Positions 189-43,114 of a stretch of 46,664 bases of DNA are shown here, piece by piece. The position numbers and the translations under genes are program-made. Where the stretch lies: positions 1 through 46,664 of IMG/VR virus record IMGVR_UViG_3300042922_001023; one strand, given 5' to 3'. Within the stretch, counting starts at the first letter, position 1, and each line of letters starts with the position of its first letter. The stretch is from a virus. The notes beneath the pieces are model-generated. The model saw nothing but the letters and a program-made list of their open reading frames with translations. It was not told the DNA's origin and made no database searches.

Positions 189-219
189 GAAGACATAGAA
201 CAAATGTTTGCGAGGATGA

Positions 220-25869: not shown

Positions 25870-25965
25870 AAAAGGCACCCAGCCAGAGGATAATCTGTAA
25901 CCGAATGCCTTTTCCGTGGTTGAATATGTATGATAGTACCTTTGGGAGAACGAAATCATTACCAA
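25870..25965. repeat. Intergenic repeat unit A (terminator plus downstream segment)
   Basis: This unit shares GGCACCCAGC, TAACCGAATGCCTTTTC and a similar downstream portion (TATGTATGATAGTACC) with unit B at 26564-26640. The AAAAGGCA/TGCCTTTT arms (25870-25877, 25906-25913) make it a bidirectional terminator, here ending the 169-residue gene. Confidence 0.55.
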
Positions 25966-26559: not shown

Positions 26560-26563
26560 TATA

Positions 26564-26640
26564 AAAAGGCACCCAGCGTAAACCGAATGCCTTTTCTTGG
26601 GATACGTATGAGGGTATCCCTCGGGGGAGTGAGGGAAGGA
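26564..26640. repeat. Intergenic repeat unit B (terminator plus downstream segment)
   Basis: This is the partner of unit A. AAAAGGCA (26564-26571) pairs with TGCCTTTT (26588-26595); a second stem GGGATAC/GTATCCC follows. It separates the tRNA-like gene from the 169-residue gene. Confidence 0.55.
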
Positions 26641-26716
26641 ACCGGCAGGAGTCGAACCTGCATCCACTGTACCTGTTATGCGCGCGCCAGTGCTCTGCCT
26701 ATTGAGCTACAATTCC
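26638..26716 (-). tRNA. tRNA-like gene with aberrant anticodon arm
   Basis: Over 79 nt the minus strand has a 7-bp acceptor stem (GGAATTG/CGGTTCC, two G-U pairs), a D arm (GCTC-AATAGGCA-GAGC) and a canonical T arm (GCAGG-TTCGACT-CCTGC). The anticodon region is abnormal: only CACTG/CAGTG pairs, around an 18-nt loop containing CGCGCGCATAAC, so the T arm is about 7 nt too far from the D arm. CAT in that loop is the only hint of an anticodon. No CCA is encoded. It is either a decayed phage tRNA or a tRNA mimic; a normal decoding role is doubtful. Confidence 0.5.
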
Positions 26717-26722
26717 ATAATA

Positions 26723-26748
26723 AAAGGCACCAGTCTCCTGATGCCCTT
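26723..26748 (-). terminator. Terminator after the kelch gene
   Basis: On the minus strand GGGCATCAG-GAGA-CTGGTGCCT, one G-T wobble plus a GNRA-type loop, is followed by TTTTATT. It ends transcription from the kelch gene before the tRNA-like gene. Confidence 0.75.
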
Positions 26749-26765
26749 AATAATTTTGTTATTAA

Positions 26766-28577
26766 TTATTGTCTTACTCTTATATATATCCTGCCGATTT
26801 CTTTACCTTCGCCATCAGTTGCAGTAATATAGGTAAGTCCTTCGCTTACCGCTGTGACTTTGCCTTTATTGGTAACTGTAGCTATCGCAGGATTATACGA
26901 TGTCCACGTTACATTTGCTGTATTTGCTGCATCATCAATAGTTAATCTGCAGGTTTCCCCTACCAATAAATCAACAGCCAGTTGTAAATCCAGATCTACT
27001 ACTAACACTTTAATTGTTTCAGTGTAATCCCCATCTTTACTGGTACACGTGATTACTGTATCCCCTGGTTTCAATGCTTTTACTAGACCATTCTCGTCAA
27101 CGGTTGCTATCACTGTATCTGATGAGGTCCATGTCATATCAGAATTTTTGCCCATATCATCAGCCACACTCAGCTGCTTTTGTTCCTTTACTTCAAGAAC
27201 TAGCTTTAATACATTAGCCGGCGCTATTGGAGTTGCAGATGCTTCATTAGAATTTGCACTTTCTCCACCTGAGTTTACTGCTGATACAACATAGTAATAA
27301 GTTTTACCATTCGTTAACCCAGTATCGATAAATTTGATAGCTGATCCTGTTACGGATGATACTGTAGTATACGGGCCACCTGCTATCTCAGAACGCTTTA
27401 TATTATAGTTTCCTGCACCATCTACCGCATCCCAGGTAAGAGAAATTTGCTTAACACCTGCTAAAGCGGATAAGTTGGCAGGAGCTGGCAAATCGAATGT
27501 TGCTATAGCATAAGATTCGACGCTACTAATACCATTATGACCCCCTAAGGCGTATATACAGCCATTCACTACTTCAGTCTGCAATATGGCTCTTACCACA
27601 GACATAGATGCAAGTGTAGTCCATGTATCCGAAACAGGATCATAAACTTCTGTTTGATTTAGATATGTAGTACCACTCTGTCCGCCAATCGCATATATCT
27701 TTCCATCTACTACTTCGGTCTGAAAAGAACTTCTTGCCATAGACATAGGCTTAAGAGTAGTCCATGTATTCGTAGAGGGATCATAAACATCTGTTTGATT
27801 TAGATATGTACTATGATACTGTCCACCAATCGCATAGATTTTACCATTAATGACTTCAGTTTGTAATCCACGTTTTGCCATAGACATAGGCTCAAGAGTA
27901 GCCCATGTATCTGTAACAGGGTCATAAACTTCAGTCTGATTTAGATAAGCAGTATCACCCTGTCCACCAATTGCATATATCTATCCATCTACTACTTCAG
28001 TCTGAAAAACACTTCTTGCCATAGACATAGGCTTAAGAGTAGTCCATGTATTCGTAGAGGGATCATAAACTTCTGTTTTATTTAGTATAGTACTAGAAGC
28101 TCGTCCACCTATTGCATATATTTTACCATCTATTACTTCTGTTTGTAAATAACCTCTTCCTGTAGGCATGGAAGCAAGTGTCGTCCATGTATTCGCTGTT
28201 GGATCATATGATGCAACTTGTCGAAGGACGGCAGCACCCTCACCTAATCCACCAATCGCATAGATTTTACCATCTATTACTTCAGTTTGAAATGCAATCC
28301 TTGCCACAGGCATAGATGCAAGTGTAGTCCATGTATCCGTAACAGGATCATAAACTTCTGTCTGATCTAGATAAGTAGTATTACCCTGTCCACCAATTGC
28401 ATAAATTTTTCCATCTATTACTTCGGTCTGAAAATTGCTTTTTCCAGTAGGCATATCTATCCTTCCTTCCCAGATAGCCATATCCTGCTGCTCATTTGCT
28501 GCAAGACATACCGAAGGTACTGCAGTTAGTACTAACAGTATAAAAAAAGCAAATCCCACTAATTTTTTCAATTTCAT
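26766..28577 (-). pseudogene. Secreted kelch/FN3/Big2 protein interrupted by an amber codon
   Basis: The frame from 28577 to 26766 would encode 603 residues but has one in-frame TAG at 27981-27983. Residues 1-28 are a signal peptide ending VCLAA. About seven kelch repeats of roughly 47 residues follow, each with (V/I)-D-G-K-I-Y-A-I-G-G and T-x-V-Y-D-P-x-x-x-x-W-T-T-L. Then comes one FN3 domain (ISLTWDAVDGAGNYNI ... GKTYYYVVSAVN) and two Big2 domains (MTWTSSDTVIATVDENGLV; VTWTSYNPAIATVTNKGKV). At the stop, DGKIYAIGG has become DG*IYAIGG, an AAG-to-TAG change. The 198-residue head or a re-started C-terminal piece could still be made. It is likely a surface adhesin cargo gene. Confidence 0.8.
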
Positions 28578-28740
28578 CTTTTGTAATCCTCCTAGTTATT
28601 TTGTACTATAATAATACATTTTAACCAAAATATGTTATATAGTAATTATTTACTATTTTAACCAAAAATTTCTGTTCTTATTGTTATAATTAGCTACCGA
28701 AATTTTATACCCTGTAGCCTCTAAAATAATACCCATAACC

Positions 28741-28769
28741 ATTATATCAGTCGAACATTTGTTTGTCAA
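28741..28769 (-). promoter_or_regulatory. Perfect consensus promoter with embedded LexA-like box
   Basis: On the minus strand TTGACA (28764-28769), a 17-bp spacer and TATAAT (28741-28746) match the sigma-A consensus exactly. The spacer carries CGAACATTTGTTTG on the plus strand (28752-28765), close to the Firmicute SOS box CGAAC-N4-GTTYG. A LexA dimer there would block RNA polymerase. It reads into the kelch gene (28577) with a leader of about 150 nt, and overlaps the last codons of the methylase gene. Confidence 0.75.
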
Positions 28770-29535
28770 AATTTTTAATAATTAGTTCTTTATAACGCTC
28801 ACTACCTGACTTCGAGACAAGATTGTGCTGCCGGTCAGTTTCGACTATTGTATATCCAGAATATAACTGGCGGACGAACTCACAATCATTGTATGACAAT
28901 ACAAATCGACCTTTGATACCAGCAAGACAGTCCTTTAATCGTCTATGATCTACATCAGAAAAACCAACGCCATAATATTGTTCTGCTTGATAATAAGGAG
29001 GGTCCAAATAGAATAAAGCTTTATCCCTATCATATGTTTTGATAAGCCCTTCAAAGTCCTTGTCCTCGATAACCGTAGATTTCAGTCTATCTTTTATGAT
29101 TCCTAGGACCTCTATACTATTATCAAGATTTTTACCTCTTACTGCAAAGGACCGCAAATCTGTCCCAAAGCTATTCTTGATCAGGATGAAGTACCTTGCA
29201 GCTCTTTGAATATCTGTAAGACCCCTGGTACTAATTTGATCCTTACAATCGAAAAACTGTTCCCGGGATACGAACTGCCATTCCAGCTCTTTCTGTAGGG
29301 CTTCGACATGATATTTTACACACCGATAAAGATTGATTAGTTCTCCATTAACATCATTGAAGACCTCCATTGGTGCGTGCTTATCCTTTGCGAACAAAAC
29401 CCATCCGGCTCCTCCAAATACTTCAATGTACCTATCGTATTCACCAGCATCAGGGAATTGTTCTATTACTTTGTTTCTCAGCAGCTTCTTGCCGCCAATC
29501 CATGAAATAAAACTGTTTATAATATCACCTTCCAT
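28747..29535 (-). CDS. DNA adenine methyltransferase (D12 class)
   Basis: A 262-residue N6-adenine methylase. FISWIGGKKLLRNKVIEQFP near the start and EVFGGAGWVLFAK form the AdoMet-binding part; ALFYLDPPYYQAEQYYG contains the catalytic D-P-P-Y. FVLSYNDCEFVRQLY and the C-terminal SERYKELIIKNF are typical of phage Dam-like enzymes. No partner endonuclease is adjacent, so it probably protects phage DNA or regulates it. The ATG at 29535 lies inside the GGAAGGTG binding site; a start at ATT or ATA 5-6 codons later would fit the family better, so the true start is uncertain. Confidence 0.88.
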   Translation of the reverse strand: MEGDIINSFISWIGGKKLLRNKVIEQFPDAGEYDRYIEVFGGAGWVLFAKDKHAPMEVFNDVNGELINLYRCVKYHVEALQKELEWQFVSREQFFDCKDQISTRGLTDIQRAARYFILIKNSFGTDLRSFAVRGKNLDNSIEVLGIIKDRLKSTVIEDKDFEGLIKTYDRDKALFYLDPPYYQAEQYYGVGFSDVDHRRLKDCLAGIKGRFVLSYNDCEFVRQLYSGYTIVETDRQHNLVSKSGSERYKELIIKNFDKQMFD

Positions 29536-29565
29536 AAATTATTGGGTATTATTTTAGGCGATAAA

Positions 29566-30494: not shown

Positions 30495-31694
30495 TTACTT
30501 AACTTCCTCCTTAAGTAACAATCCTTTTGATATAAAAGACTGAGCCTCTAATTTCAAAACTTTTGTAACATCCCCAGTGAGTACAAAAAGATCACCTTTT
30601 TCACCATCAAAATTATAAATCCTATATAAGTAATAAATATCCGCATAATGGTTAGAGTGCTCTATTTCTTTAGATGTTAAATAAAATGGTACATTAATAC
30701 CTCCTGTGGTAGTTTTCACTTCGATATGTAGTTCCTGATCATCTTTACATGCTTTTATATCATATCCTTCTCTATCATTCTTAGTAACCGCTACATGCTC
30801 AACCTCATAACCATCCTTTATAAGTTGATTTAAAACCATATATTCTCCAGCTAGCCCAAGTCGTCTATGCTTTTTTGAATTTTCTTCATAATCAGTTTGC
30901 CTTCCATTAGATCCAGTGGTAATGCTTGCTCGGGTAAATCCGGATTCGTTATATATATCAGGTAAGACAGATTGAGCATTTATATGAGTATCTTTACCCA
31001 TATTAGTAATTATTTTATCAATCTTAGCTCCCATACTGTCTGGTTTATCTATCTCATTTATACTTCTGGTACGGAATAAAAAGTTATTGGTATCAATATA
31101 ATCTCCGATCAGATTACCTTTTAATTCACGAAAAAGCGTAATCATAATTTGTAGATCTCTTACTAGTTCATCTTCTGCAGGAAGATTATTTGCATTATAA
31201 TACTTTCCAAAGATATGACCTCTTTCATAACCCTTAGGCAAATCTGTTTTAAACCCTTCTGCCTTCAGATTAATTGGATCTTTTGAAAAGTGGCCTAAAC
31301 AGGACTTCAATATTACTCGCCAATAATCAGCGATTTGAGCTATTCTTTTGTAGCCTTCTTTTCGGCCAAAGGTATCTTTATAATAAGTCCATCCCTGACC
31401 TAAGGAGATATATACACCGCTCATATCAGCAGTAAATAAATAAACTATATAATATCCTTTTCTCGCTGATACGCTAATATCTTTATCAAAAATACATATC
31501 CACGGAACCGCTGCCCAATTACCCTTGCCAGCAGATCCTTCAACAATATATTGCTTCGGGTCAACAATTCCTGAGTTAATAAAATCCTGCTTACATTCAC
31601 TTTCCAAATACCTAACCATACTATTGTTTTTAAAGTCTAACCCTTTGTTGCTTATGTACTGATTTGATATATTAGATAAAACTTGTCTGATCAT
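30495..31694 (-). CDS. DUF3578 (MrcB-N-like) / DUF3883 restriction-endonuclease-like protein
   Basis: A 399-residue protein. Residues about 10-180 resemble the DUF3578/MrcB N-terminal recognition domain: GSAGKGNWAAVPWICIFDKD, then YYIVYLFTADMSGVYISLGQ. The C-terminus (about 275-385) looks like DUF3883, a PD-(D/E)XK nuclease: GLAGEYMVLNQLIKDGYEVE, NDREGYDIKACKD and LHIEVKTTTGG give the E, D and E-x-K residues. Such proteins occur as type IV-like restriction or other defence nucleases. The start at 31694 follows GGAGG 6 nt ahead. It has its own promoter and is followed by a coupled membrane protein. Confidence 0.78.
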   Translation of the reverse strand: MIRQVLSNISNQYISNKGLDFKNNSMVRYLESECKQDFINSGIVDPKQYIVEGSAGKGNWAAVPWICIFDKDISVSARKGYYIVYLFTADMSGVYISLGQGWTYYKDTFGRKEGYKRIAQIADYWRVILKSCLGHFSKDPINLKAEGFKTDLPKGYERGHIFGKYYNANNLPAEDELVRDLQIMITLFRELKGNLIGDYIDTNNFLFRTRSINEIDKPDSMGAKIDKIITNMGKDTHINAQSVLPDIYNESGFTRASITTGSNGRQTDYEENSKKHRRLGLAGEYMVLNQLIKDGYEVEHVAVTKNDREGYDIKACKDDQELHIEVKTTTGGINVPFYLTSKEIEHSNHYADIYYLYRIYNFDGEKGDLFVLTGDVTKVLKLEAQSFISKGLLLKEEVK

Positions 31695-31721
31695 ATAGTA
31701 CCTCCAAGCGAATTTGGTACT

Positions 31722-31750
31722 ATTATACAGCTTATTTCTACAAATTTCCA
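31722..31750 (-). promoter_or_regulatory. Promoter of the nuclease/membrane operon
   Basis: On the minus strand TGGAAA (31745-31750), 17-bp spacer, TATAAT (31722-31727), about 28 bp ahead of the start at 31694. The -35 box is one base off the common TTGAAA. Confidence 0.55.
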
Positions 31751-31759
31751 TTATTTTAT

Positions 31760-41627: not shown

Positions 41628-41676
41628 TTGACACTCATTTACAAATGTGCTAATATAATCATCGAACACTTGTTTG
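41628..41676 (+). promoter_or_regulatory. Rightward promoter with LexA-like box, antisense to the Cro-like gene
   Basis: TTGACA (41628-41633), 17-bp spacer and TAATAT (41651-41656) form a near-consensus promoter pointing right. CGAACACTTGTTTG (41663-41676) sits at the expected transcription start and differs from the box at 28752 by one base. The transcript would run antisense through the 70-residue HTH gene toward the repressor. Confidence 0.6.
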
Positions 41677-41678
41677 TT

Positions 41679-41891
41679 TTATGCTACCTTCTCACGTGCA
41701 AATAGGTAATCATAGTCATATTCAGGAAAAAAGACATTCTTGATTTTTGATGCTTCATCGAAGGTAAACCCTGACACTACCAATCCATTAAGCTTATCGC
41801 TTATAGTAGCCTGTCTGCATTCAAGAAGATTTGATATCTGAATTCCTGTGATACCTTTCAACTTCATCACCTTTAATAAGTTGCAATACAT
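41679..41891 (-). CDS. Cro-like HTH protein
   Basis: A 70-residue protein. MKLKGITGIQISNLLECRQA followed by TISDKLNG is a compact helix-turn-helix, and the C-terminus is FFPEYDYDYLFAREKVA. The ATG at 41891 is chosen because AAAGGAG stands 8 nt before it. It is the first leftward gene, driven by the promoter at 41940-41968 and divergent from the repressor, as for Cro or an early antirepressor. Confidence 0.78.
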   Translation of the reverse strand: MYCNLLKVMKLKGITGIQISNLLECRQATISDKLNGLVVSGFTFDEASKIKNVFFPEYDYDYLFAREKVA

Positions 41892-41910
41892 AGCAAATTC
41901 TCCTTTCATA

Positions 41911-42010
41911 TAATTCGTATTTCCGTATTTCATAATTGAATTATATACCGACTTACGAATTAGGTCAACATAAAAATACTGACTTACGAATTATTACGTT
42001 ATTCCGTATT
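41911..42010. promoter_or_regulatory. Operator repeats of the lysogeny switch
   Basis: GACTTACGAATTA occurs twice as a direct repeat at 41950-41962 and 41981-41993, 31 bp apart (about three helical turns). Inverse half sites TAATTCGTA (41911-41919) and the related TTCCGTATTT (41921-41930 and 42002-42010 region) flank them. The first full repeat lies in the spacer of the leftward promoter: -35 TTGACC (41963-41968), 17 bp, -10 TATAAT (41940-41945). These should be the repressor and Cro binding sites. Confidence 0.7.
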
Positions 42011-42076: not shown

Positions 42077-42403
42077 ATGGAAAAAGCTAAGATTCTTGAG
42101 AGGTTAATTAAAGAGCAGGGTTATAATTTAAAAGCATTTGCTGAAAAATGCGGCATACCTTATACAACACTCTATGGGATAATTAAAAACGGAGTTGGTA
42201 GAGCATCTATGGATAACATATTGATTATATGCAAATGCCTTGGAATCAAAGTAGAAGAGCTTGAAGAAATGGCAGCGGGTGCCCCAAAGGAAAATTATGA
42301 GCCTACATATGAAGACATTAAGATTTTGGTAGCGAGAAACGGAAAGCATCTCACACCAGAACAGAAGCAAGAAATAATAAAGACCCTGCTTTCAGATAAC
42401 TAA
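42077..42403 (+). CDS. XRE-family phage repressor
   Basis: A 108-residue CI-like repressor. Residues 5-65 form the XRE helix-turn-helix: NLKAFAEKCGIPYTTLYGII followed by SMDNILIICKCLGIKVEELE. The C-terminal 40 residues (LTPEQKQEIIKTLLS) are helical and may dimerise; there is no LexA-type autoprotease domain, so inactivation probably relies on the ImmA/IrrE protease next door. TAGAGGGATAA precedes the ATG. Confidence 0.88.
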   Translation: MEKAKILERLIKEQGYNLKAFAEKCGIPYTTLYGIIKNGVGRASMDNILIICKCLGIKVEELEEMAAGAPKENYEPTYEDIKILVARNGKHLTPEQKQEIIKTLLSDN

Positions 42404-42418
42404 ACGGAGCTGATATTA

Positions 42419-43114
42419 TTGGACTATAAAATGATCAATCAGAAAGTATTAGAAGTGTTTATAAAATACGATATAAAATCGTTTCCTGTAGATTGCAAGT
42501 ACATAGTTAATAAACTCGGATATAATCTGTTTAAATATTCCGAATTATCAGAAGAAAAAAGAAATAGCTGCCTTATGGTGAGCGATGAATCGCTAATGTT
42601 ACATAATAATATTTATTATAATGATGACATGGTAAATTCACGTATCAGATTCTCAATATCTCATGAAATAGGTCATATTATTCTTAATCACGGTGAGTAT
42701 ATGAATCCAATAAAGGAGGCAGAAGCAAATTGTTTTGCAAGCTGCTTACTAGCTCCACGAATGGCCATCCATTATGCAAAATGTAAAAATCAGAATGATG
42801 TAGTAAAGATATTTCACATTTCTCAGGAAGCTGCACAATATGCATTTGACGATTATCGACGTTGGTATCGGTGGATTGTAATACATAAGATGGCCGCCTT
42901 TGATAAGGCTATGTATCAGCATTTCTATAACGCCGATGCAAATTGCTTTGTATATAGTGTTAAGAAATGTGCCTATTGCGAATCAGAAATTTATAACTCT
43001 CCCGATATACTGTGTAAAGAATGCAAAACACCCACCCCATTCTATCTTCAGCATCCCCAGTATGATGACGATTTATTAGTTGCAGAAAATCACTGGCTCT
43101 ATAGTGGATTATAG
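42419..43114 (+). CDS. ImmA/IrrE-family metallopeptidase with zinc ribbon
   Basis: A 231-residue protein, 15 bp after the repressor. FSISHEIGHIILNHGEYMNP holds the H-E-x-x-H zinc site, and KEAEANCFASCLLAPRMAI is the downstream Glu region. The C-terminal 50 residues have KCAYCESEI and DILCKECKT, a zinc ribbon often fused to phage ImmA proteins. Such proteases cleave their partner repressor upon induction. The TTG at 42419 follows GGAGCTG; an ATG four codons later is also possible. Confidence 0.88.
   Translation: MDYKMINQKVLEVFIKYDIKSFPVDCKYIVNKLGYNLFKYSELSEEKRNSCLMVSDESLMLHNNIYYNDDMVNSRIRFSISHEIGHIILNHGEYMNPIKEAEANCFASCLLAPRMAIHYAKCKNQNDVVKIFHISQEAAQYAFDDYRRWYRWIVIHKMAAFDKAMYQHFYNADANCFVYSVKKCAYCESEIYNSPDILCKECKTPTPFYLQHPQYDDDLLVAENHWLYSGL

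Follow-up and report, generated by a model that had tools for sequence, protein, structure and literature searches.

A methylase unit ends in a host-type SOS promoter, probably under LexA control, in a temperate phage of Herbinix-like Lachnospiraceae

The viral DNA analysed here, hereafter the window (46,664 nucleotides), carries at the 3' end of an adenine methylase gene a promoter with a LexA-like box lying inside it, and this raises the question of whether the SOS response of the bacterial host governs the promoter and which gene would then be placed under its control. An initial annotation of the sequence had proposed that DNA damage would switch on a secreted kelch protein encoded downstream at the time of prophage induction. 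We consider it probable that this is a host-LexA-controlled (SOS) promoter located where a methylase unit ends and driving the neighbouring gene in a temperate phage of Herbinix-like Lachnospiraceae. The identity of the gene that benefits from such control is a different matter, and we examine it separately.

The promoter at the methylase end and its host counterparts

The promoter, of the sigma-70/A type (TTGACAAACAAATGTTCGACTGATATAAT; 28741..28769, minus strand), is an exact match to TTGACA-17-TATAAT, with both hexamers perfect and separated by a spacer of 17 nt. A LexA box, CAAACAAATGTTCG (equivalent to CGAACATTTGTTTG on the plus strand), identified by its palindrome and its matrix score, lies at 28752..28765 (minus strand) and spans the final 2 bases of the -35 hexamer plus 12 of the 17 spacer bases. 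The box has the CGAAC-N4-GTTYG palindrome of the Firmicute LexA (DinR) operator and overlaps the promoter in such a way that its occupation would be predicted to block the polymerase. The promoter runs through the last codons (KNFDKQMFD) of a D12-class N6-adenine DNA methyltransferase (28747..29535, minus strand) and is aimed at the kelch ORF, which starts with an ATG at 28577 and is preceded by a Shine-Dalgarno sequence, AGGAGG, at 28593. The perfect promoter with a LexA-like box across its spacer, its direction toward the kelch gene and its overlap with the methylase codons had all been described in the initial annotation, and the sequence at 28769..28741 (minus strand) and the coordinates of the flanking genes confirm them.

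In the window the integrase gene ends beside a tRNA-Pro gene, and the gene beyond, which we take to be host DNA, shares 75% identity with a gene of a Herbinix sp. MAG that likewise stands beside tRNA-Pro. The host is likely to be a Herbinix-like member of the Lachnospiraceae and the virus its temperate phage; among named phages, the search for DNA relatives of the window returned nothing beyond a short Ig-domain match. The LexA protein of the Herbinix MAG carries LexA_DNA_bind and S24 domains, and a LysM (yneA-like) gene divergent from lexA has a promoter (TTGACAAACATATGTTTGTTCTGTATAAT) identical to that of the window at 22 of 29 positions, the identity rising to 25/29 for the LysM-gene promoter of other host relatives (TTGACAAACAAATGTTTGTTCGATATAAT). 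Several boxes are present in each of the lexA regions of this MAG and its relatives. The composite pattern of promoter and box occurred in 26 of the 41 related genomes (35 sites listed, many of them adjoining lexA) against 2 hits in the reversed control. Boxes of the AGAACATTAGTTCG type were found ahead of recA in all 10 genomes with a readable upstream region among the 12 fetched. A point against is that the strict pattern CGAACNNNNGTTYG was rare in one genome (G001), giving 3 hits, below its reversed control. The box of the window agrees with the lexA and recA boxes of the host group, as judged from relatives and not from the exact host: the lexA/yneA box of these relatives is the same and their recA box is related, the divergence in sequence that could have contradicted the initial annotation being absent.

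The phage L053, whose portal and methylase are 82% and 80% identical to those of the window, respectively, has TTGACAAACATATGTTCGATTGGTATAAT at the corresponding methylase end, identical to the window promoter at 26 of 29 positions. Because the TGA within TTGACA serves as the stop codon of the L053 methylase, the promoter of this phage is non-coding, lying beyond the methylase coding sequence, and coding constraint could be ruled out as the cause of the conservation. The ends of the methylase homologues read KNF(K/V), KNY or similar, and the longer tail of the window methylase, DKQMFD, is consistent with a one-base difference from L053. Another relative, L052, presents the same plan of promoter and box with a different gene behind it. 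We found no box 3' of the methylase in 15 other homologues (L003, L004 and 13 genome loci, not all of them with readable 3' ends), so that the association between methylase and promoter rests on two phages. Exact composite promoters were detected in 20 stretches of viral contigs, only two of which, L131 (the contig of L052) and L133 (the contig of L053), are known members of this phage group. Given the top rank of the box under a host-derived matrix (see below), the near-identical lexA/yneA promoter of the host group and the conservation in L053, LexA control is well supported by sequence, and repression of this promoter by LexA is in our view very probable.

A second SOS-type promoter (GAAC-N4-GTTC, 1 nt, TATAAT) is present in some of these relatives (L052:5953, L053:5158 and L056:6538), followed by a conserved leader and then by ORFs of 324-333 aa, ahead of the terminase genes.

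The methylase gene of the window is flanked by a perfect pair of 15-nt inverted repeats, TGGGTATTATTTTAG, one upstream of the gene (29543..29557, plus strand) and one downstream (28721..28735, minus strand), the SOS promoter standing just inside the right repeat and reading outward. The same pair occurs in L053 (3448/4258), and a close version of it in L165 and L166 (1480/2267, methylase strand). A mobile element would be expected to have such repeats at its two ends; no clear target-site duplication was apparent on inspection by eye of L165, L166 and the window, and for this reason the mobility of the methylase unit is only suggested. The repeats could belong to a mobile cassette or could be the sites of a regulator. 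A scan of viral contigs with the 15-mer yielded mostly chance matches, and we left it out of the results. The methylase unit seems to include the SOS promoter, which is aimed outward at the neighbour of the unit. Close to the methylase, the product of 30495-31751 (minus strand) combines MrcB_N and NO VEIN C-terminal (NOV_C) domains and is a candidate restriction or defence gene.

The genes behind the promoter

The kelch gene (26766..28577, minus strand) codes for a secreted-type protein with kelch-repeat, fn3 and Big_2 domains and a signal peptide recognised by eye; its AT-rich 5' leader could contain further promoters. An in-frame TAG at 27983..27981 (minus strand), absent from the initial annotation, breaks the frame after 198 codons, and the second half of the gene beyond it retains kelch, fn3 and Big_2 domains. 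Unless UAG is suppressed, the product in this record would be a fragment of 198 residues comprising the signal peptide and kelch repeats. Recoding of UAG or a suppressor tRNA was considered and rejected, as no CUA anticodon was seen by eye in the tRNA-like element described below, and a plain nonsense mutation is the simpler account. The homologues of kelch elsewhere have open frames (for example, 520 aa in L005 and 536 aa in L008), and no LexA box was found upstream of those in other phages. With its own promoter and terminator and its sporadic presence among relatives, the kelch gene resembles a phage moron; a moron is also an intact gene with a product in the lysogen, but this one is interrupted by the TAG, and its promoter is expected to be repressed in the undamaged lysogen. 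Because of the in-frame stop codon, this record is unlikely to yield a working surface protein in response to DNA damage. The outcome foreseen in the initial annotation is weakened by this stop, by the absence of boxes at the kelch homologues and by the fact that the promoter of L053 faces a tRNA gene.

The order of elements in L053 is SOS promoter, 20-bp leader, tRNA and terminator-like sequence. In the window this same leader precedes kelch, after which come a terminator-like hairpin directly 3' of the gene (26719..26745, minus strand; -16.4 kcal/mol, z -4.9, then a T-rich tract), the homologous tRNA-like element, whose anticodon loop is enlarged (26637..26716, minus strand; Rfam tRNA, 48.5 bits), and a second terminator-like hairpin belonging to that element (26563..26595, minus strand; -19.3 kcal/mol, z -4.7). 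Insertion of kelch behind the promoter is the simplest explanation, its loss in L053 being possible. Under such a history the promoter may really serve the tRNA or RNA element, as it seems to do in L053, or some other downstream gene, kelch being an inserted passenger that is expressed incidentally, and the box-less kelch homologues and the broken kelch gene of this record are what one would expect from a passenger. However, a terminator separates kelch from the tRNA-like element and kelch has a ribosome-binding site of its own, and on these grounds we take kelch as the first and main target in this record; kelch could also have been lost in L053, and an SOS box immediately ahead is lacking for most of the related tRNA-like elements. 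We rather doubt that the tRNA-like element is the true target, while regarding it as a serious possibility.

Several features of this region deserve description in their own right. The anticodon arm of the tRNA-like element has an 18-nt loop with a conserved GCGCGCGCAYAACA, the element is conserved in several related phages (L060, L062 and L157-L164) upstream of terminase-type genes, and in L053 and L056 the arms are near normal size. The terminators at 25870-25913 and 26563-26595 (minus strand) are alike (AAAAGGCATTCGGTT...GGGTGCCTTTT) and separate cargo genes; their kin are present in L053, L056 and L062, and such repeated sequences could aid the exchange of cargo by recombination.

Further LexA boxes and the immunity region

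We built a LexA matrix from 71 boxes near the lexA genes of host relatives (Herbinix-like Lachnospiraceae). The ranking that it gives within the window, with the box at 28752 first (20.4), one at 41663 second (17.1) and one at 197 third (16.4), is to be read in relative terms only, since a consensus pre-filter was used in building the matrix. The last two boxes (41663-41676 and 197-210) had been omitted from the initial annotation.

The second box, CGAACACTTGTTTG (41663..41676, plus strand), lies just beyond the stop of a cro-like HTH ORF of 84 aa (41679..41933, minus strand). Upstream of the box is a promoter, TTGACA-17-TAATAT (41628..41656, plus strand), which reads antisense to the cro-like ORF and toward the genes for an ImmR-like HTH repressor (42077..42403, plus strand; Pfam HTH_3/HTH_26) and an ImmA-like M78 metalloprotease (42419..43114, plus strand; Pfam Peptidase_M78). 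A box is found at this position in 13 of 14 related records (L142-L155, among which L150 and L151 are alike in that stretch), and in those 13 it sits 3-9 nt past the -10 hexamer of a TTGACA-17-TATNNT-type promoter (17-nt spacer) directed toward the ImmR-like gene; most of the 13, but not every one, had recognisable ImmR-like and M78 genes. The relatives speak against a leftward promoter at 41663, since their sequences fit the opposite strand better (9-11 of 12 matches, compared with 5-9). The box at 41663 possibly provides the ImmR/ImmA switch with another SOS input, with more ImmA, silencing of cro or restoration of the repressor as candidate effects, and this arrangement may be more interesting than the promoter at the methylase end.

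The third box, AGAACAAATGTTTG (197..210, plus strand), follows TTCACA-17-TATTAT (160-188). Behind it, ORF 220-405 encodes 61 aa with no Pfam match.

The recurrence of the box at the immunity region of related phages, where phage regulators act, suggests an alternative in which the palindrome is bound not by host LexA but by a phage repressor, either ImmR or the cro-like HTH protein, as its operator. We consider this very unlikely: the box equals the lexA/yneA boxes of the host, at which no phage protein is involved, the immR/cro intergenic region is devoid of it and has other repeated motifs instead, and the window encodes no LexA-like protein, a search of it for LexA-domain proteins having found none.

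Exact matches to TTGACA-16/18-TATAAT numbered 2 in the window against 0.03 expected, and sites scoring at least 16 numbered 3 against 0.06 expected per shuffled window, with none of 200 Markov shuffles containing two of them. The region is AT-rich and promoter-like matches in general are no commoner in the window than in shuffles, yet it is extremely improbable that an AT-rich stretch at a gene end simply happened to match promoter and box, given that a box with a nearby -10 and a -35 of at least 5/6 appeared in 0 of 200 Markov shuffles, that the window holds two more boxes and that the promoter is conserved in non-coding DNA in L053.

Relation to known SOS-controlled phages and biological meaning

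With host LexA as the regulator, the protein bound in the spacer would block RNA polymerase; DNA damage would lead to RecA-stimulated cleavage of LexA, and the freed promoter would fire outward, across the right inverted repeat, into the adjoining gene, which is the kelch/fn3/Big_2 cargo with its own ribosome-binding site and terminator here and a tRNA gene in L053. This LexA/RecA mechanism is drawn from established SOS biology and from the precedents of phages GIL01 and Gifsy, and it is in this sense that we infer that LexA binds and represses the promoter, that damage induces it and that transcription proceeds into kelch. Since the methylase end carries a near-copy of the host DNA-damage switch, damage should switch on any gene that adjoins it.

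The divergent lexA-yneA SOS promoter of host Lachnospiraceae (B. subtilis yneA type) shares with that of the phage a common 29-bp plan, TTGACA and TATAAT with a CAAACAAATGTTTG-type box in the same register (at most 25/29 identical); however, the phage has a single box where the host has four to six, and its promoter would drive phage cargo whereas that of the host drives a LysM division inhibitor. In the Gifsy prophage of Salmonella, host LexA directly controls an antirepressor locus that lies downstream of the replication genes and is not part of the immunity region (PMC3121763). Gifsy and the window would be alike in having host LexA sites at prophage genes outside the immunity region, but no antirepressor was recognised in the window, where the cargo is kelch or tRNA. 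In GIL01 of Bacillus thuringiensis, a temperate phage of Firmicutes that, like the window, has CGAAC-N4-GTTCG-type boxes for host LexA, LexA and gp7 repress the main phage promoter P1 (PMC4551915), whereas the window has an ImmR/ImmA-type pair and its LexA sites at other promoters. Operators of the form GAAC-N4-GTTT/C were used in a screen of C. difficile (PMC4234289). The window also resembles the ImmR-ImmA switch of ICEBs1 and phages in its order of genes, an HTH repressor first and an M78 protease next, but differs from ICEBs1 in the LexA box on the promoter aimed at this operon; in a limited literature search we found no report of a LexA box on a promoter directed at immR/immA. Known LexA-controlled prophage genes are mostly antirepressors or lytic promoters from a few model phages, and the ImmR/ImmA switch has so far been explained by ImmA alone.

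Taking a broader and more tentative view, which we find plausible but short of probable, a family of phages of Lachnospiraceae and their relatives may be wired to the host SOS response at several points, through a conserved LexA-blocked promoter toward immR/immA, antisense to the cro-like gene, and through the outward SOS promoter of the inverted-repeat methylase unit, which would put adjoining cargo under damage control. The design of a host SOS promoter is reproduced in phages of a major family of anaerobes, with the gene behind it differing among relatives. If confirmed, damage-induced cargo genes would be predictable in these phages from a 29-bp sequence, and through the conserved LexA site at the immR/immA promoter the ImmR/ImmA switch would gain another route by which it responds to damage.
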